Part shown: positions 17,980 to 26,973 of the stretch, one piece after another
How the letters are laid out: each line of letters starts with the position of its first letter
How positions within the stretch are numbered: the stretch's first letter is position 1
Assembly: GCA_027491215.1 (NCBI GenBank)
Contig: JAIXWP010000137.1
Location: 1-45,044 of the forward strand
DNA from: Flavobacteriales bacterium
GTDB taxonomy: Bacteria; Bacteroidota; Bacteroidia; Flavobacteriales_D; Sanyastnellaceae
Reading direction: 5' to 3'
Length of the DNA: 45,044 nt
Made by a program: the position numbers and the translations under genes
The notes under the pieces: generated by a model
Seen by the model: the letters and a program-made list of their open reading frames with translations, nothing else
What the model was told of the DNA's origin: nothing
Databases searched by the model: none

Positions 17980-18360
17980 TTAGTTCGCAGCAGGTGCTGG
18001 AGCAGAAGCTTTCTTAGCAGCTTTCTTAGGAGCAGCTTTTTTAGCAACTTTCTTAGCAACAGGCTTCTTAGCAGCAGCTTTCTTAGGAGCTACTTTCTTA
18101 GCAACCTTCTTAGCAGCAGCCTTCTTAGGAGCAGCCTTCTTAACTACTTTCTTAGCAGCTGGCTTCTTAGCAGCAGCCTTCTTAGGAGCAGCTTTCTTAA
18201 CTACTTTCTTAGCAGCAGCTTTCTTAGGAGCAGCCTTCTTAGCTACTTTCTTAGCAGCTGGTTTCTTAGCAGCTTTTTTAGCAGCCTTCTTAGGAGCAGC
18301 TTTTTTAGCAGCCTTCTTTGCAGCTTTTGGAGCCGCAGCTGATTTTGACTTTGTTTTCAT
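17980..18360 (-). CDS. Histone H1-like Lys/Ala-repeat protein
   Basis: A 126-residue protein made almost entirely of K, A, P and V in repeats of the type [14 protein letters not shown], resembling the C-terminal tail of eukaryotic H1, chlamydial HctB and AlgP. Such proteins bind and condense DNA non-specifically. The start at 18360 ([16 protein letters not shown]) gives a tail-only protein; an upstream ATG at 18429 lies within the dyad 18403-18431 and adds 23 unrelated residues, so it was rejected. The DNA is a degenerate tandem array of short Lys/Ala/Pro codons, expected to vary in length between strains. Confidence 0.88.
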
Positions 18361-18402
18361 TTTAGTAACGGTTGATTTGTTTCCTAATTTATTTATTTCT
18401 GA

Positions 18403-18431
18403 TTTTGATTTGCGTTGTACGCAGATCAAAA
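18403..18431. promoter_or_regulatory. Strong dyad between DUF2279 and the histone-like gene
   Basis: Two 13-bp arms with one mismatch (left 18403-18415, right 18419-18431) around a 3-nt centre; core TTGATTTGCGT / ACGCAGATCAA. It starts 10 bp after the DUF2279 stop and lies 43 bp before the histone-like ATG. It is not followed by a T-run, so an operator or processing site is as likely as a terminator. Confidence 0.5.
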
Positions 18432-18440
18432 ATTTTAGTT

Positions 18441-19364
18441 CTAAAAAAACAATGCGTGCATTTTCACTTTTCCGCCACTTTGCATTTCGAGTGTTGGTGA
18501 AGGTAGTTTAATGAAGCTTAAAATTCGTGCTGTTGTCTTCATCCACTTCTTCGGCCATCTTACTCGATTCAAATCTGCATCAAATGATAAATAGTATGAA
18601 CGCGTGCGTTGAAAATTATTAACACTATTAACATCAATTTTTGCAGTCGTTAATCCGTCTACTCCGTAACCAATTGCGATATTCATCCACTTCGGGAAAG
18701 CCGCGCCAGAAGCCAGACTCGATGATATGTTGTATGATGCCCAATATGTTTGTCCGTTGTAGTCTTTCAAAATGCGTTGTTGAAAATTACGACCAAGTTG
18801 CTCAGGATTAACATCTGCAAATCTTGAATTTGAATATGAAAATTTCAAATTGATTCTTTGTTCTTTCCAAAATTTTTGTTGCAAAACAAACAAAGTTGTT
18901 CCAGAAAAATTTGCGATTTGATCCCCCCAAGAAAATCCCCATTGCGCAGAATGACCATCTAAAATTTCTATTCCAGTCATGTAAATTAAACCAACGCTTC
19001 CTCCTAAAAATAAAGATGTGTTTTCATTCATTCCACTCCATCGCATCGATTCATATCCAATCATGCCTAAATAATAAGTGGTGGTCATATGACCAACCTT
19101 ATCCATTTGCAGCCATTCATCATTGTCATTGAATGAATGCAACGGACTCTTCGGGTATCCTTTATACCAAAGGCTATTCAACCCAATGTAACTTGCAGTA
19201 GTTAGAACTGCTCCGCTGCTTAATATGATTTTTTTTCTTCGTGCTAATGAGTCCACTTCTGTTTTTTGAGCGAACATTTGAAGGCTTGTGAAAATGACAA
19301 GACATGTCGTCAAAGCTGCATGAAGTGCTTTCTGAAGGATATGAAGTGCATATTTTGAAACCAT
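18441..19364 (-). CDS. DUF2279 family membrane/envelope protein
   Basis: A 307-residue protein with an N-terminal signal or anchor ([17 protein letters not shown]), then the DUF2279 pattern: [30 protein letters not shown], and [21 protein letters not shown], followed by a beta-rich C-terminal half. The family is widespread in Bacteroidota and related to YfiM-type lipoproteins; its function is not established. It is divergent from the first hybrid histidine kinase with a 54-bp gap, so the two promoters must overlap. Confidence 0.78.
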
Positions 19365-19418: not shown

Positions 19419-21485
19419 ATGATCAAAGGTATTCTATCTGGCAGAAAAACATATTCTGCTTTTGATTTTTACGCTATCATGGCATTGTTAAGTGCCGTGA
19501 CTCAACTTTTATTGCCATTAAAGTTCAGTTTTTTGGTTTTGGATTTTCAAGAACTTTATTGGGATCGCGCCATCATCATGGTCATTGGATTGGTGCTTGC
19601 ATGGATAGGTTTTAGGCAGAGCATGAAAATAGAGTTGTACTATACACTCGTTCGTGTGCAGTTTTTCATCTATTCTATTCATGCGTCATTAACAACCTTT
19701 GCGAATGATTATCAACTTGCTTATTTAGCATCGCTACTTTTCACCATCCAACTTGGAGCTTTGTCTTTTAAAACAGCACGGCAGTCGAATGCTTATTTGT
19801 TGATTGTTGTTTTGTTTTCAGAAATTTTACTTTTAATAAATGAAAATGTTACTCCCCTTGTGAAGTGGGAGTTGTCATCTCTCTTTTTCTTTAGCTTTTT
19901 AATCCAATTTGTTTTGATGCGTTCGAAGATTAGAATTCTCTCACGTGTCAAATTGCAGCGCGACGTATTGAAGGCAGTAAGTAATAAAACAGAGCACGCT
20001 CTTCTTATTACGAATATGCAAGGGGAGATTATAGATATGAATAAGGTAGCATGTGAAATGTTTGGCTACACCGAGGATGAACTCACCGACAAGGATTTTG
20101 CTGTTTTAAGAAAGTACATTTTGTCTGAAAGCGATATTGATTTTGCATTGAAGATTTTGGAGCAAAATCATTTTTGGAGTACAGAGACTATATTAATAAG
20201 GAAGGATAATACAGAATTTGATGCTTATGTATCTGTAGGTATGGTGGAGCGGAATGATTTGAGATGTCTTGTATATCGTGTGTCTGACACTACCGCTTAT
20301 AAGAAATCACAAGAGGAGTTGATTCGTGCGAAAGAACAAGCAGAGGCTGCGGTGGTAGCCAAGAGTCAATTCGTAGCTACGATGAGTCATGAGATTCGCA
20401 CACCATTGAATGGAGTGATTGGAATGGCATCGTTGCTTCAGTCTACAAAGTTGGATGGAAGACAAGAAGAATATGTCGAGACCATTCAACGCAGTGGACA
20501 GAGTTTGATGGTGCTTATAAATGACATTCTCGATTTTAGTAAAATTGAGAGTGGCAAAATGAAATTGGATAAACAACCCGTTGATGTACGAGAGTCCATT
20601 AGTGAAGTTGTTGACCTACTTAGGCCACACGCAGAATCAAAGGGTCTTATTATAAGTATGGATGTAGACATTCATGTTCCCGAATTATTGCTACTGGACA
20701 CATCTAGGACCAAGCAGATATTGTTAAACCTAATAGGTAATTCAATCAAGTTTACCGATAAAGGTTTTGTACGTGTTTCGGCGTATATGAAAACAAAATC
20801 AGGATGTAAGCAAGAGTTACACATCGATATTGAGGATACAGGTATTGGTATTCCAAATGATAAAATGCAGAGTTTGTTTGAATCATTTTCACAAGTGGAT
20901 TCAAGCACGAGCAGAAAATATGGCGGAACAGGACTTGGTCTTGCCATTTGCAGAGAGATAGTTCAATTGATGGGAGGAGATATTACTGTTCAAAGTAGGG
21001 AGGGAGTCGGGTCGAAATTCTGTTGTTCGATTGAAGCGGAAGAAGTGAACTGCGAATCTCAGTCAGTGAATCAAGCTCAAATCAAATTTGATAGCACATT
21101 ATTTAATGATGTTAGGATAATGATTGCGGAAGATAATTTCGTCAATCAACGTGTACTGCAATACATGCTTGAAACATTGGGAGTGAAGTCTGATGTGGCA
21201 GCTAACGGAAAAGAGGTTTTGGAAAAAGTAGAATCGATGCAAATTGATGTGATTTTGATGGACGTTCAAATGCCAGAAATGGATGGCATAGAAGCGACCG
21301 AGGAAATACGAAAGCGCGATTGGCATCAACCATACATTGTGGCGATGACTGCAAATACAGGGTCCGGAGATCGTGAACGCTGCCTTTCTTCAGGCATGAA
21401 TCATTTCATTTCAAAACCATTCGTCATCGAACAGGTAGGTGAGTGTCTCATGATGTGGCATCAAGAAAGGGCATTAAAAGCCTAA
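19419..21485 (+). CDS. Hybrid sensor histidine kinase (membrane-PAS-HisKA-HATPase-REC)
   Basis: A 688-residue kinase with about six membrane helices (20-168) and no large periplasmic domain, a PAS domain (about 183-295), a HisKA domain with H324 (ATMSHEIRTPLNG), and an ATPase domain. The ATPase domain has an intact N box (LIGNSIKFT, N441), D473 (EDTGIGI) and G2 loop (GGTGLGLAI). The C-terminal receiver keeps E571/D572, phospho-acceptor D615 (ILMDVQMPEMDG) and K666. All catalytic residues are present. There is no HPt domain and no DNA-binding regulator nearby. It is followed after 49 bp by a second hybrid kinase. Confidence 0.96.
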   Translation: MIKGILSGRKTYSAFDFYAIMALLSAVTQLLLPLKFSFLVLDFQELYWDRAIIMVIGLVLAWIGFRQSMKIELYYTLVRVQFFIYSIHASLTTFANDYQLAYLASLLFTIQLGALSFKTARQSNAYLLIVVLFSEILLLINENVTPLVKWELSSLFFFSFLIQFVLMRSKIRILSRVKLQRDVLKAVSNKTEHALLITNMQGEIIDMNKVACEMFGYTEDELTDKDFAVLRKYILSESDIDFALKILEQNHFWSTETILIRKDNTEFDAYVSVGMVERNDLRCLVYRVSDTTAYKKSQEELIRAKEQAEAAVVAKSQFVATMSHEIRTPLNGVIGMASLLQSTKLDGRQEEYVETIQRSGQSLMVLINDILDFSKIESGKMKLDKQPVDVRESISEVVDLLRPHAESKGLIISMDVDIHVPELLLLDTSRTKQILLNLIGNSIKFTDKGFVRVSAYMKTKSGCKQELHIDIEDTGIGIPNDKMQSLFESFSQVDSSTSRKYGGTGLGLAICREIVQLMGGDITVQSREGVGSKFCCSIEAEEVNCESQSVNQAQIKFDSTLFNDVRIMIAEDNFVNQRVLQYMLETLGVKSDVAANGKEVLEKVESMQIDVILMDVQMPEMDGIEATEEIRKRDWHQPYIVAMTANTGSGDRERCLSSGMNHFISKPFVIEQVGECLMMWHQERALKA

Positions 21486-21500
21486 TTGAAATAGATTTCT

Positions 21501-21508
21501 TATCTTCG
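21501..21508 (+). promoter_or_regulatory. -7 promoter element TATCTTCG before the second hybrid kinase
   Basis: TTCG variant of the -7 box, 26 nt before ATG 21535. It suggests the second kinase can be transcribed separately. A small hairpin AGGGG-TCAG-CCCCT (21512-21525) sits in the predicted leader, 9 nt before the ATG. Confidence 0.45.
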
Positions 21509-21534
21509 CATAGGGGTCAGCCCCTCTATGGATT

Positions 21535-23697
21535 ATGAAAACGAAGTTGAGATTTCAAATTCTTCTATTTATAGCAATAGTCTCCTCCTGCTTGATACTT
21601 GGGGGTGTTGTTGCTTATAATATATATTCTTCAAGCAAACAGTTCAACGCTGGACTCAGCGTATCCATGAAACAAAAGGCAACAGCCTTTGAGATCAATC
21701 AGACGGTTTTTCATCTCGCGTCACTTTCCAAGACAAGGGAGCTAACTAAAGAAGAGCTGAACAAATTTGCTGGATTGGTTTCTAATTGGGAATTGGTACA
21801 GCGAGCCTTAGTTGACGGTAATGAGGTGTATAGAATTTCTCAAGAAAAATCTGCAGAGCTCCGTTCAAAGTTAGAAGCTACCTCAGAACCCCTTTTGAAC
21901 TCGCTTAAAAATCTGAACATCCTGTCGCAACAAACTTCCAATTGGAGTGATGAACAAGTGACAGTCACCATCCAATCAGTGGAGGCCTTTGCACTTGGAA
22001 TGAATGATGTAAGTGGACAATTTAATAAGGAGTCAGACGAAGAACTTTCATCGAGTTTGTATATGCTTATTGCCCTGGGCTTGGGGACTTTTGTTTTGCT
22101 ATGGGTAGCTTCACGAATCCTCTTAATTCCATTATTGAAGCGTGCTGAAGAATCTGAAAGTATTAAAACAATTGTTGGAAAGGAGATCGAAGATGTTCGC
22201 AATAGTAAGGTAGAGTTTCTTGGTAATATGAGCCATGAACTGCGCACGCCTTTAAACGGATTGATAGGAATGACTGAGATTTTGTACAAAACAAAATTGA
22301 CAGAAGAACAGGATAAATATGTGCGTTCAATAAAGAATAGTGCGAATAATCTACTGAATATCGTTTCAGATATTTTGGATCATTCTTCGCTTGAGTCAGG
22401 CGATATTGAAATTAGAAAAGAAAATTTCTCCATTGGGGAATGTGTTGAGCAAGTCGTTGATTTACTTAAGCCATCTATTGGAGAAAAGAAGATAGAACTC
22501 ATCTACGATATTGATGTGACCTTGCCGGATACTGTGATTCAAGATGAGCGACGCATTCGACAAACGTTGGTCAATATTCTTGGATATGCCATTGAGCATA
22601 CCGAAGCAGGAGATATTTTCTTGAAAGTAGAATTGCTCAATCAGGAAGGTGAGTTTATTCAGGCAAAATTCAGTGTTCACTCTTCGGGCTTGGGCATTAC
22701 AGAAGATCAGAAGAGGAGGGCTTTCCAGTCATTTGACGGCTCTTCAAATGGTAGCGAATCGTTGGGGTTAGCTATCACTAAAAAGTTGATTGATCGCTTA
22801 GGTGGAAGAATTTGGGTGGATGGAAATAATGTAAAAGGTACAACTGTTGCCTTTACCGTAGTTGCCGAATCTGGATCTTCTATCGATTTATCCAAGGTGA
22901 GCAAATTGATGGGTAAAAAGGTCTTGGTAATTGACGACAATAAGACCAACCTTAAAGTATTGGTCAAACAATTATCTGTATGGGGAATGCAGGCCACCCC
23001 TTTCAATAGCTCCGATCTAGTGGTAGATATGATTGACAATCTGACCAAGTTTGATCTGTGTATCTTGGATAGCTCAATGGCTTCGGTGGGAGGTATTCCT
23101 TTGGTGGAGAGAATAAGAATGCGCTATTCTCAAGATGAGTTGCCAATTATTCTTACTTCTGCTACTGGGAAGACCATTCAGCAAAATGAAGATGGATTGT
23201 ACACTGCGTTTTTGACCAAGCCAATCAAACAGTCGAAGCTATTGGAAACAGTGCTTCAGATTGTTCAAGGGGACGTGGAGGTGAAATCGAGCTTTGGAAA
23301 TCATGAGGGAGATTTTGGTAAAAAGCATTTGAAGATTCTGATTGCTTATGATAATGATTTAACTAGAGCTGTGACGGAAAAGAATCTGACCATCTTCGGA
23401 CACACATGCACCTCGGTGAAGAGTGGGCGAGATATGGTAGATAAGGCATCAACTGGCCAGTTTGATCTAGTCATAGTAGATAGTCAACTCTCTGAATTGA
23501 GTGGAATAGAAGCCCTACGTCACCTCAAGAAAATTACCAATGAAGACGATATGCCTTTGGTTTTTGGTTTAGCCGAAGAACAAGCTCAAGGTCGTCGATT
23601 GATGAAGCAAGCAGGTGCGGATGAAATTATTCCTATCAAGCACGCAGCGGAAGATATCCAAAAGAAGATAGAAGAGTGGTTTGAAAAAGAAGTCTAG
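21535..23697 (+). CDS. Hybrid histidine kinase with degenerate ATPase domain and two receivers
   Basis: A 720-residue protein: membrane helices at about 8-29 and 174-192 enclosing a helical periplasmic sensor, a HisKA domain with intact H234 (NMSHELRTPLNG), an ATPase-like domain, and two receivers. The ATPase domain is degraded: the invariant N-box Asn is Y351 (NILGYAIEHT), the G1 Asp is S383 (VHSSGLGI), and the G2 glycines are replaced (GSESLGLAI). Receiver 1 is intact (D467/D468, D512, K562). Receiver 2 has Y605 in its acidic pair but keeps D649 and K702. It probably cannot bind ATP normally yet can still carry phosphate on His and Asp; partnership with the upstream kinase is an inference. 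Its TAG overlaps the mltG stop at CTAG. Confidence 0.93.
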   Translation: MKTKLRFQILLFIAIVSSCLILGGVVAYNIYSSSKQFNAGLSVSMKQKATAFEINQTVFHLASLSKTRELTKEELNKFAGLVSNWELVQRALVDGNEVYRISQEKSAELRSKLEATSEPLLNSLKNLNILSQQTSNWSDEQVTVTIQSVEAFALGMNDVSGQFNKESDEELSSSLYMLIALGLGTFVLLWVASRILLIPLLKRAEESESIKTIVGKEIEDVRNSKVEFLGNMSHELRTPLNGLIGMTEILYKTKLTEEQDKYVRSIKNSANNLLNIVSDILDHSSLESGDIEIRKENFSIGECVEQVVDLLKPSIGEKKIELIYDIDVTLPDTVIQDERRIRQTLVNILGYAIEHTEAGDIFLKVELLNQEGEFIQAKFSVHSSGLGITEDQKRRAFQSFDGSSNGSESLGLAITKKLIDRLGGRIWVDGNNVKGTTVAFTVVAESGSSIDLSKVSKLMGKKVLVIDDNKTNLKVLVKQLSVWGMQATPFNSSDLVVDMIDNLTKFDLCILDSSMASVGGIPLVERIRMRYSQDELPIILTSATGKTIQQNEDGLYTAFLTKPIKQSKLLETVLQIVQGDVEVKSSFGNHEGDFGKKHLKILIAYDNDLTRAVTEKNLTIFGHTCTSVKSGRDMVDKASTGQFDLVIVDSQLSELSGIEALRHLKKITNEDDMPLVFGLAEEQAQGRRLMKQAGADEIIPIKHAAEDIQKKIEEWFEKEV

Positions 23698-24713
23698 TTG
23701 ATATTCGCCTCTCGCTGCCACTTTCTATAAGCACTCACATATTTCCCATGTTCTCCAAACGTTCTTGCAAAGTCATGAAGTCCGGTGCCTCTTGGTTGTG
23801 CACACATATAAAAGTAATTATGTGATTCTGCATTGAGAACAGCATCTAAATAGATAGGTTCTGTAAAGAATACAGGACCCGGAGGTAACCCGGTATTTTC
23901 GTAAGTGTTATAACGAGAGTTAGGGTCAGCGTTGCTCAGTTTTACACGAGCTTTTGATCCATTATAATTTTCAAACGTAAGTGTAGGATCTGCTTGAAGT
24001 GCTTGATTGACGCGAATTCTATTGAGGTAGAGTCCTGCTATTTTTGGAGCTTCAGACTTGGTAACTGTTTCTCCTTTAACAATAGATGCCAAAGTATATA
24101 CTTCCGCTTTTGTCATCTTCAAAGCTTCTGCTTTTTTTATTTTTTCTTCAGTCCAGTATTCATCAGTAATGGTCGTCATTTTTTCTAAAAATTCCTCGGG
24201 AGAAATCGTCCAGTAGAACTCGTAAGTATTTGGAAAAATCAGGGATGAGACCTCTTCTTTTTGCACGCCATATTTCTCTAGAATTGCTGTACTTGTAAAT
24301 GCAGAGATGAATTGACTGGAGTCTGCTTGAAGCTGAGCACCAAGGACGCCAGCCAGTTGTTGAATAGAACGAACACCCTCAACCTTTATAAGTAAAGGCT
24401 TTTGGCTTCGAGCTCTTATCTTATTGATAATAGAATTATGACTTTCGCTATTCATGAATTGAAAGCGACCAGGTCGGGCAGATTCAAAGTTTTTGAGAGA
24501 TGCAAGTGCAAGGAATTGCGAAGTTGATGAGATGATAGAGTCCTGGTAAAGTAAATCCGCAAGGGTGGATACATCACACTCATTTTCCAAATAGAAAATT
24601 TTAGATTCGTTTTTGAAAAAGGCCGTTGCTACTATTACACGAGAGGTGAAAAAGATGCCTATGGCTACTGCAATTACTGCGATGATGAGGATGTATTTTG
24701 TCGTTTTTTTCAT
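23694..24713 (-). CDS. mltG: Endolytic murein transglycosylase MltG
   Basis: A 339-residue YceG/MltG protein with one N-terminal membrane anchor (about 7-30), a LysM-like region, and the catalytic domain carrying LIFPNTYEFYW, TLASIVKGET (with the conserved glutamate), KIAGLYLNRI and LQADPTLTFENYNG, then NTYENTGLPPGPV. MltG cleaves nascent glycan strands and sets their length. The usual EKE motif reads KGE here. It is translationally coupled to the upstream acetyltransferase through an ATGA overlap and is the last gene of that operon. Confidence 0.95.
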   Translation of the reverse strand: MKKTTKYILIIAVIAVAIGIFFTSRVIVATAFFKNESKIFYLENECDVSTLADLLYQDSIISSTSQFLALASLKNFESARPGRFQFMNSESHNSIINKIRARSQKPLLIKVEGVRSIQQLAGVLGAQLQADSSQFISAFTSTAILEKYGVQKEEVSSLIFPNTYEFYWTISPEEFLEKMTTITDEYWTEEKIKKAEALKMTKAEVYTLASIVKGETVTKSEAPKIAGLYLNRIRVNQALQADPTLTFENYNGSKARVKLSNADPNSRYNTYENTGLPPGPVFFTEPIYLDAVLNAESHNYFYMCAQPRGTGLHDFARTFGEHGKYVSAYRKWQREANIN

Positions 24714-25581: not shown

Positions 25582-25645
25582 CTGAAAGGCATTATTGAAG
25601 GTCGGTATGCAATCTGTGCTTACTTTTACGTCCGCACAAAAATAC

Positions 25646-26413
25646 ATGATAATGAGCCTACGTCAGATTTTCGGGATTTTTCTTGTAATTCTAGTGGCAA
25701 GTTCTTGCACGGTGAATAAGGATTTTATGTTCAAGACCGATGCTGATTTTGCCTATGATGCTATTAACAGGGACACGGCTAATGGCGAGTTTGTCCTTGC
25801 TCCGAATGATTTATTTTCATTTGAAGTTTACACCAATCAAGGAAAAGTCATTTTGGAAGCTTATTCATCTACTGAAAGAATATTTTTACCAGGTACAAGG
25901 AGCAGCACTCAATTTAGAGTAGATCCTGATGGAACAGTAGAAATGCCCGTTCTTGGTAAGGTTCAGGCTGCGGGCCTAACTGTACAGGACTTTCAAGATT
26001 ACCTAGAACTACGTTATTCTGAGCAGCTTGTAAATCCATATTGTTTTGTGAAAATTGTCAATAGACGAGTATTGGTATATAATGGAAATGCCAGTGCAGG
26101 AACCGTTGTGGGCCTTGAGACGAACAATATTCGATTAATAGAAGCGCTTACAATCTCGGGTGGTTTAGGCCAAAGAGCGAATGCTTCAAAAATCAAAATT
26201 ATTAGAAGTCTAAACGGTAAAACGGAAGTTTTCTTAGTGGATTTGTCTAAAATAGAAGGCATTCAAGACGCAAATATGATTGTGGAAAATGGTGATATCA
26301 TCTATGTGCAGTCAACTCCCAACATCGGATCTGAAGTGCTTCGTGATGTCAACCCGATTATTTCTTTGACAACTTCTATTGTCCTTCTAATTGCCCTTTT
26401 CGGACGATTCTAA
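25646..26413 (+). CDS. Polysaccharide export lipoprotein (Wza-like)
   Basis: A 255-residue outer-membrane export protein with a lipoprotein signal (ILVASSC, Cys 21), a Poly_export domain (FVLAPNDLFSFEVY, then FRVDPDGTVEMPVLGKVQAAG), a SLBB-like domain (VLVYNGNASAGTVV, ALTISGGLGQRANASKI, VENGDIIYVQ), and a C-terminal hydrophobic helix (ISLTTSIVLLIALFGRF). It should form the export channel for capsule or exopolysaccharide. ATG 25652 is an equally possible start. It is 11 bp upstream of rfbC; no Wzc-type tyrosine kinase follows, which is unusual for a capsule locus. Confidence 0.92.
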   Translation: MIMSLRQIFGIFLVILVASSCTVNKDFMFKTDADFAYDAINRDTANGEFVLAPNDLFSFEVYTNQGKVILEAYSSTERIFLPGTRSSTQFRVDPDGTVEMPVLGKVQAAGLTVQDFQDYLELRYSEQLVNPYCFVKIVNRRVLVYNGNASAGTVVGLETNNIRLIEALTISGGLGQRANASKIKIIRSLNGKTEVFLVDLSKIEGIQDANMIVENGDIIYVQSTPNIGSEVLRDVNPIISLTTSIVLLIALFGRF

Positions 26414-26424
26414 TTAGATTTATT

Positions 26425-26973
26425 GTGGAAATCAAAACTACCCCCTTCAAGGACTTATTGATTATTCAACCTGCTGTGTTTCCCGATGAGCGCGGTTATT
26501 TTTTTGAATCTTTTAATGAATCAAAATTTCGAGTTCAAACGGGCTTAAATATGTCTTTTATACAAGACAATGAGAGTATGTCCTCTAAGGGTGTGCTGCG
26601 TGGCCTACACTTTCAACTTTCCCCGAAAGCCCAAGCGAAATTAGTTCGCGTATCAAAAGGTGCAGTATTGGATGTGGTTGTGGATTTGCGAAGAACACAG
26701 CCAACCTACGGGCAGTCTTTTAAGCTTGTGTTAAGTGCAGAGAATAAAACGCAACTATTCATTCCTGAAGGCTTTGCTCATGGATTCTGCGTTCTGGAAG
26801 ATCAAACGATCTTTTCTTATAAATGCACCAATTATTATAGCAAAGAGAATGAGCGTTCTATTCTCTGGAATGATCCATCATTGGCTATAGATTGGGAGAT
26901 CGAAAATCCGATTATTTCAGAAAAGGATAAGAACGCTCCACTTTTGGAATCTTTACCACATTTCTTTTTCTAA
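26425..26973 (+). CDS. rfbC: dTDP-4-dehydrorhamnose 3,5-epimerase
   Basis: A 182-residue cupin enzyme (RmlC) that epimerises dTDP-4-keto-6-deoxyglucose at C3 and C5 in dTDP-L-rhamnose synthesis. Motifs: FPDERGYFFESFNE, VLRGLHFQ (catalytic His62), VVDLRRTQPTYGQ, IPEGFAHGFCVLED and YSKENERSILWNDPSLAI. The start is GTG at 26425: it gives the usual N-terminus (MEIKTTPFKDLLII), and the next in-frame ATG is about 40 codons in. The rest of the rhamnose pathway (RmlA, B, D) is not in the window. It probably shares a transcript with the Wza-like exporter. Confidence 0.95.
   Translation: MEIKTTPFKDLLIIQPAVFPDERGYFFESFNESKFRVQTGLNMSFIQDNESMSSKGVLRGLHFQLSPKAQAKLVRVSKGAVLDVVVDLRRTQPTYGQSFKLVLSAENKTQLFIPEGFAHGFCVLEDQTIFSYKCTNYYSKENERSILWNDPSLAIDWEIENPIISEKDKNAPLLESLPHFFF

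Follow-up and report, generated by a model that had tools for sequence, protein, structure and literature searches.

A candidate lineage-specific pseudo hybrid histidine kinase encoded beside an intact hybrid kinase in a Flavobacteriales bacterium

RetS-GacS serves as the model for control of an active hybrid histidine kinase by a kinase-dead one, and comparatively few such cases have been worked out. According to PMC5992135, RetS has a degenerate HATPase domain without G-boxes, shows no autophosphorylation and carries an HExxT motif and two receivers, the second of which takes phosphoryl groups from GacS; it inhibits GacS autophosphorylation and dephosphorylates the GacS receiver via HExxT, an activity lost in T428A, and RetS-GacS heterodimers are supported by PMC4866733. 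According to PMC9491836, ChrS of Corynebacterium glutamicum, a pseudokinase whose CA domain was wrecked by a frameshift in laboratory evolution, alters the signalling of the intact HrrS; native ChrS and HrrS heterodimerise, and truncated ChrS is described there as giving no significant heterodimer signal. Pseudo histidine kinases are thus uncommon but known, since 0.9% of HisKA domains (722 of 76,471) are given as lacking the His in PMC12632262. Here we describe two adjoining genes, K1 and K2, in a stretch of 45,044 nucleotides (the window: contig JAIXWP010000137.1 of assembly GCA_027491215.1, positions 1 to 45,044, forward strand) from a Flavobacteriales bacterium of the family Sanyastnellaceae, in which K2 appears to be a lineage-specific pseudo hybrid kinase that may control the intact K1 as RetS controls GacS.

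Both open reading frames were confirmed where a sequence-only reading of the window had placed them, K1 (688 residues) at 19419..21485 and K2 (720 residues) at 21535..23697, lying in tandem on the same strand in an operon-like layout (coordinates are those of the window, on the forward strand unless marked minus). K2 is a hybrid histidine kinase by descent, with HisKA (71.5 bits), HATPase_c (62.8 bits) and two receivers above Pfam cut-offs, and is not a catalytically complete one, as Tyr351, Ser383, Ser407 and Ser409 occupy positions at which Asn, Asp and Gly are required. The same reading had proposed that three ATP-binding elements of K2 are changed. At the N box (NILGYAIEHT, versus NLIGNSIKFT in K1) the Mg-binding Asn is indeed replaced by Tyr351 (codon TAT, 22585..22587), and alignment equally upholds Ser383 (22681..22683) in place of the G1-box Asp (SSGLGIT versus DTGIGIP). 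For the G2 box (GSESLGL, residues 406-412, 22750..22770, versus YGGTGLGL), whose glycines had been read as turned into Ser and Glu, two glycines are lost as proposed, but Gly407 and Gly409 have both become Ser, Gly406 is kept, and Glu408 replaces the Thr or Ser that lies between. The ATP lid before this box is shortened, its stretch having six residues fewer than in most homologues. The fold of the degenerate domain (residues 297-446, 22423..22872) is still predicted: the AlphaFold model of K2 (mean predicted local distance difference test score, pLDDT, 80.6) shows a regular ATPase domain whose strands and helices are preserved and whose lid, at 400-407, is disordered. Its nearest solved folds are ShkA, GacS and RetS, and its nearest solved structures by sequence, which the residue alignments to solved kinases covered, are ShkA, GacS, 7p8e and RetS.

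The erosion of the K2 ATPase domain exceeds what chance would explain, since 13 of the 38 ATPase sites invariant in 18 reference orthologues differ in K2, whereas each of these orthologues, when left out in turn, shows at most 4 changes in 42 sites. The reference set excludes the eroded K2 of three relatives (G002, G022 and G016, described below) together with those of G035, G019, G077, G017 and G032. Changes at invariant sites elsewhere in K2 amount to 0/16 in the DHp, 7/34 in receiver 1 (none of them among the five catalytic residues) and 0/11 in receiver 2. Four K2 homologues that have not undergone the loss scored 104-116 bits for HATPase_c, and G002 and G022 scored 86 each. The genome from which the window derives (the source genome, G000) holds 27 HATPase places, 15 of which gave an alignable kinase core, while a 16th was limited to 38 residues. 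Among these 15 cores, K2 alone has changes in all three of the N, G1 and G2 boxes. Judged from these residue losses, normal binding of Mg-ATP would be abolished, and K2 alone very probably cannot autophosphorylate.

The remainder of K2 is largely kept. As the sequence-only reading had held, K2 has a sensor of its own (residues 1-198, 21535..22128), anchored by two hydrophobic segments (3-32 and 171-202) and modelled as four long helices (2-67, 72-94, 107-131 and 139-251). We call this sensor, homologous to that of the K2 of G013, PilJ-like because the latter reached the Pfam PilJ (PF13675) cut-off (32.4 bits versus 26.6), the only one of eight K2 homologues scanned to do so; the source K2 itself falls below it. 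The DHp (222-289, FLGNMSHELRTPLNG, 22198..22401) has the phospho-acceptor His234 (22234..22236) within HELRT, an HExxT motif in which His234, Glu235 and Thr238 are all present. Receiver 1 (460-578, 22912..23268) retains Asp467, Asp468, Asp512, Ser542 and Lys562, along with the VKQLSVWGMQATPFNS patch. The claim that His234, the DHp helices and receiver 1 are intact therefore stands for the first two and for the catalytic residues of receiver 1. Receiver 2 (596-717, 23320..23685) keeps Asp606 and the phospho-Asp Asp649, but is degenerate at Tyr605, Ala680 and Ile701, so that receiver 1 is the only intact receiver of K2. In one alignment, 15 K2 homologues have this domain, and in 8 of them its first acidic position is taken by His, Gln or Tyr; receiver 2 therefore resembles a pseudo-receiver even in proteins with a complete ATP site.

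K1, by comparison, looks intact and would be an active hybrid histidine kinase. It comprises a hydrophobic N-terminus, a PAS domain, HisKA (88.2 bits), HATPase_c (99.6 bits) and a single receiver (Response_reg, 94.9 bits), and a Pfam search of K1 gave no HPt domain match. The His, the N, G1 and G2 boxes and the receiver phospho-Asp expected of a HisKA hybrid kinase are all present, in the DHp (311-380, MSHEIRTPLNG, 20349..20558), the ATPase domain (388-545, 20580..21053, with the boxes quoted above) and the receiver (564-680, with EDN, MDVQMP, TAN and KPF, 21108..21458). The first kinase thus has every ATPase residue that had been ascribed to it.

In all, 114 genomes of the host family were searched, and K2 was found at an expectation value (E) of at most 1e-75 in 24 of them. 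Three more homologues (those of G035 and G019, shorter and with one receiver, and that of G016, 534 residues, behind K1) brought the number with a readable ATP site to 27; left out of the counts were G026 (K2 cut by a contig end and present from residue 385 onwards), G060 (both genes broken, assembly 62% complete) and G001 (locus absent, assembly 69% complete). Of the 27 homologues, 25 have both the Mg-binding Asn and the G1 Asp, the exceptions being the source K2 and that of G016. The degenerate residues are consequently not conserved among orthologues, and at the family level we found what the sequence-only reading had named beforehand as contradicting it, namely orthologues of the second kinase in which these boxes are intact. 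A conserved pseudokinase is thereby ruled out, and the loss of the ATP site is not ancestral and would seem to be lineage-specific. An order-wide search with a K2 profile yielded 38 of 399 genomes at E≤1e-120, with full-length or N-terminal matches confined to the host family; in five genomes of one other family the match began at about profile position 200, without the sensor. Since this search missed G016, eroded K2 elsewhere would be missed as well. A contig scan gave three loci, the sole close one (L033) probably being the G002 record.

Three relatives display erosion of other kinds. The K2 of the sister G002, of the same genus, retains Asn351 and Asp383, but has G407A, GLSL in place of GLGL and a lid shortened by seven residues; the H-box reads FGHEVRAPLDG, in which T238A removes the HExxT Thr, and D468G removes the second Mg-binding Asp of receiver 1. 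That of G022 likewise keeps Asn and Asp, together with HELKS, DTGQGM and SGIALSL, and both proteins may still bind ATP. Erosion has gone furthest in G016, whose K2 (L061:8486-10090) immediately follows an intact K1 and has lost the His, the Asn, the receiver Asp, the receiver Lys and receiver 2 in its entirety. This protein has no Pfam match, but hhalign paired its ATPase and receiver 1 regions with the K2 profile (probability 97.9%, E 5e-13). It has two hydrophobic segments as K2 does, and in its model (mean pLDDT 66.6; best fold match ShkA, E 3.7e-8) the N-terminus forms four helices and the ATPase and receiver folds are rough. The K1 boxes are kept in all four genomes with an eroded K2.

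Interrupted copies also occur. A single in-frame stop was observed in the K2 of G032 (L053:6602-8827, TAG, in the G2 region) and of G017 (L057:6716-8908, TGA, in receiver 1), which may be real pseudogenes or reflect assembly error, while in G060 (L128) K1 and K2 are both split into several frames.

K1 homologues matching from the N-terminal part onwards were found in the source genome and 17 others, and in 16 of these 18 genomes with both genes the two are arranged in tandem on a single contig, in the same orientation; the exceptions are G022, where K2 is inverted, and G018, where a contig end cuts K1. Inversion of K2 relative to its neighbours was also seen where K1 has been lost, at L049 and L063-L067 of genus g9, in addition to L055 of G022. 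In the trees (from which G077, G017, G032, G035, G019 and G016 were excluded for K2, and G018 for K1) the source genome groups with G002, G022 lies elsewhere among the K2, and G016 joins G013 and G032 in K1. On these groupings we count three K2 erosions, all with an intact K1 alongside, and three K1 losses, all with a complete K2; that the two never coincide is suggestive only.

Given that K2 combines a dead ATP site, HELRT and one intact receiver with an adjoining intact kinase, we favour the explanation, to which we give an even chance, that it is a lineage-specific pseudo hybrid kinase controlling K1 as RetS controls GacS. K1 would be the active hybrid kinase, and K2, devoid of normal Mg-ATP binding and of its own autophosphorylation, would have maintained its sensor, DHp and receiver 1. 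Mixed K1-K2 DHp dimers would lower K1 autophosphorylation, the HExxT motif of K2 would dephosphorylate the K1 receiver, and receiver 1 of K2 would accept phosphoryl groups from K1 at Asp512, the strength of this control being set by the PilJ-like sensor. The contact between the two proteins, the three activities and their inhibitory direction are all inferred by analogy with RetS.

Several observations weigh against this explanation. K1 is missing from 9 of the 27 K2 genomes, namely seven of genus g9 (G029 and G074-G079), G080 and G019, so that the pair is not always adjacent and an obligate K1-K2 pair is ruled out; in eight of these nine, K2 directly adjoins on one contig the DUF2279-like gene that otherwise flanks K1, and in G077, where a contig end cuts K2, the absence of K1 rests on the search. 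The association of K2 erosion with the presence of K1 is not significant (4/18 versus 0/9, p=0.27), nor does it become so when the interrupted K2 of G032 and G017 are added (6/18 versus 0/9, p=0.07). No co-adaptation between K1 and K2 was seen across 13 genomes, either in the DHp (identity 0.527 within and 0.522 between genomes, p=0.27) or in the ATPase domain (p=0.20). The structural resemblance of K2 to the RetS kinase region (6dk7, E 1.4e-16, template modelling score 0.83 by target length, 32% identity) belongs to fold matches that are general to the kinase class of K2. Finally, lacking the HExxT Thr and Asp468, the K2 of G002 would retain just one of the three RetS-like actions, inhibition of the dimer type.

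The losses in G002, and the fact that nothing catalytic is left in G016, suggest that a function shared by the eroded K2, if there is any, would be contact with K1 rather than phosphotransfer. A broader and more tentative proposal, which we hold to be somewhat unlikely as it stands, is that K2 would be abandoning its role as a kinase, repeatedly and in parallel, in genus g1 (the genus of the source), in G022 and in G016, and becoming a non-catalytic K1 partner, with selection keeping the sensor and the docking on K1, and with phosphotransfer being optional. Helix 1 and strand 2 of receiver 1 would form the docking face. In the K2 of G016 the sensor persists, as do rough ATPase and receiver folds and, within receiver 1, the patch around TPFNS; of the receiver 1 sites invariant in 12 reference rows, it retains 10 of 18 in 470-508 but 2 of 14 in 509-578, whereas the other three eroded K2 keep 15-16 and 9-11, respectively. 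The idea of a docking patch derives from this uneven retention, in one genome and over a small number of sites.

A less probable explanation, which we consider unlikely, is that K2 is merely decaying, its job having become dispensable in genus g1, so that the gene is heading towards a pseudogene and the present protein has no role. The eroded relatives lose different parts (the ATP site in the source; the HExxT Thr and Asp468 in G002; the H-box and lid in G022; nearly all catalytic residues in G016), which decay would produce, as it would the stops in G032 and G017 and the broken genes of G060. On the other hand, the source K2 is a full-length open frame with an unchanged DHp, and the comparison with G002 points to selection. 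Identity between the two species is 47% for K2, 49% for K1 and 46-82% for neighbouring genes; fourfold degenerate sites are at random identity in every K1 and K2 domain (10-43 sites each), including the K2 ATPase domain (0.23 observed, 0.25 expected, 26 sites), yet protein identity reaches 50% in that domain and 54% in receiver 1, and the K2 protein was therefore constrained over most of the time since the split. The G016 gene, at 17-21% identity, is moreover open over 534 codons, for which the chance in random DNA of like composition is about 5e-11. A recent loss on the source branch is compatible with the identity to G002, and decay may possibly have begun recently there (ATPase-domain branch 0.63 for the source versus 0.42 for G002).

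We deem it still more doubtful that K2 serves as the phosphotransfer hub envisaged by the sequence-only reading, in which K1, or a mixed dimer, would phosphorylate His234 of K2 in trans and the phosphoryl group would pass to receiver 1, a free HPt protein and a regulator. His234, Glu235 and the five receiver 1 residues are available for such a relay, and the source genome, with 31 receiver matches, encodes two free-standing HPt proteins (contigs C80 and C87), which make the Asp to His step possible. Nevertheless, no HPt or regulator gene was found among the genes directly flanking the pair, the DHp carries no co-adaptation signal, and the arrangement is not conserved, with Asp468 being Gly and the Thr gone in G002, and both the His and the receiver Asp absent in G016. 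A conserved hub role is thus unlikely in the group, and such a role would hold at most for the source species.

Slightly more improbable still, in our estimation, is that K2 acts together with some other kinase, or as a homodimer with sensor or phosphatase function, its place beside K1 being historical. Its occurrence without K1 in a third of the genomes, its inversion in G022 and the presence in the source genome of at least one further hybrid kinase of the same class (C136, an 832-residue frame) would agree with this. However, the K2 of all nine genomes without K1 have the Asn, the G1 Asp and GxGLGL, and may thus be kinases in their own right, while the four eroded K2 all have K1 alongside. 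That K2 retains kinase activity through an unusual ATP site is very improbable given that three separate boxes and the lid have changed together, even though calls of inactivity from sequence can fail, as RcsD, which lacks the usual His, is reported in PMC3762810 to self-label in vitro.

On its K1 side the pair is flanked by the DUF2279-like gene (18441..19364, minus strand), a conserved neighbour, and on its K2 side by a YceG/MltG-like gene (23694..24713, minus strand), which occupies this place in most relatives. Beyond the former, at 17980-18429 (minus strand), lies a gene for a Lys/Ala-rich protein of 149 residues with AKKA repeats, whose resemblance to the histone H1-like HC2 family (27 bits) does not reach the Pfam cut-off of 40. 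At 25595-26973, a Wza-like Poly_export gene is followed directly by a dTDP-4-dehydrorhamnose 3,5-epimerase gene; an open reading frame of about 800 residues lies between these two genes in G010, G020, G003 and G007, and is absent from the source genome, G002, G018 and G074.

A pseudo hybrid kinase with an active partner is already known in kind from RetS-GacS, and it is the several stages of loss seen among the K2 relatives that this family contributes. One conserved gene pair shows across related species a complete K2, a K2 without K1, a half-eroded K2 and an almost fully eroded one, which allows us to ask in what order ATP binding, phosphatase activity and phosphoryl acceptance are lost when a partner substitutes for them, and which surface remains. 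It also illustrates that calling a pseudokinase from a single genome says little about its family.

Among known systems, RetS of Pseudomonas aeruginosa is the closest to K2, sharing a HisKA domain with HExxT, a HATPase domain without the N- and G-box residues, receivers behind it and an intact hybrid kinase as partner; the RetS kinase region is also among the nearest solved structures by sequence (6dk8, 124 bits). K2 is, however, not a member of the RetS family, given that its sensor differs: that of RetS is of the 7TMR-DISM type, for which no match was found in K2 (Pfam, E≤1), where a PilJ-like four-helix bundle stands instead. Unlike RetS, K2 adjoins its presumed partner, would accept phosphoryl groups on receiver 1 rather than receiver 2, and has orthologues that mostly keep the Asn and the G1 Asp; the partners differ too, as GacS has an HPt domain according to PMC5992135 and K1 has no HPt match. 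ChrS-HrrS resembles K2-K1 in pairing a CA-degenerate kinase with an intact partner kinase, whose signalling ChrS alters. ChrS is not known to be a hybrid kinase. EspA-EspC of Myxococcus xanthus are two hybrid kinases with transfer between proteins. DivL of Caulobacter, in which Tyr stands in place of the phospho-acceptor His, is a pseudo histidine kinase acting on the hybrid kinase CckA and was recovered as a fold match to K2 (4q20), but K2 keeps His234 and so departs from the DivL type.

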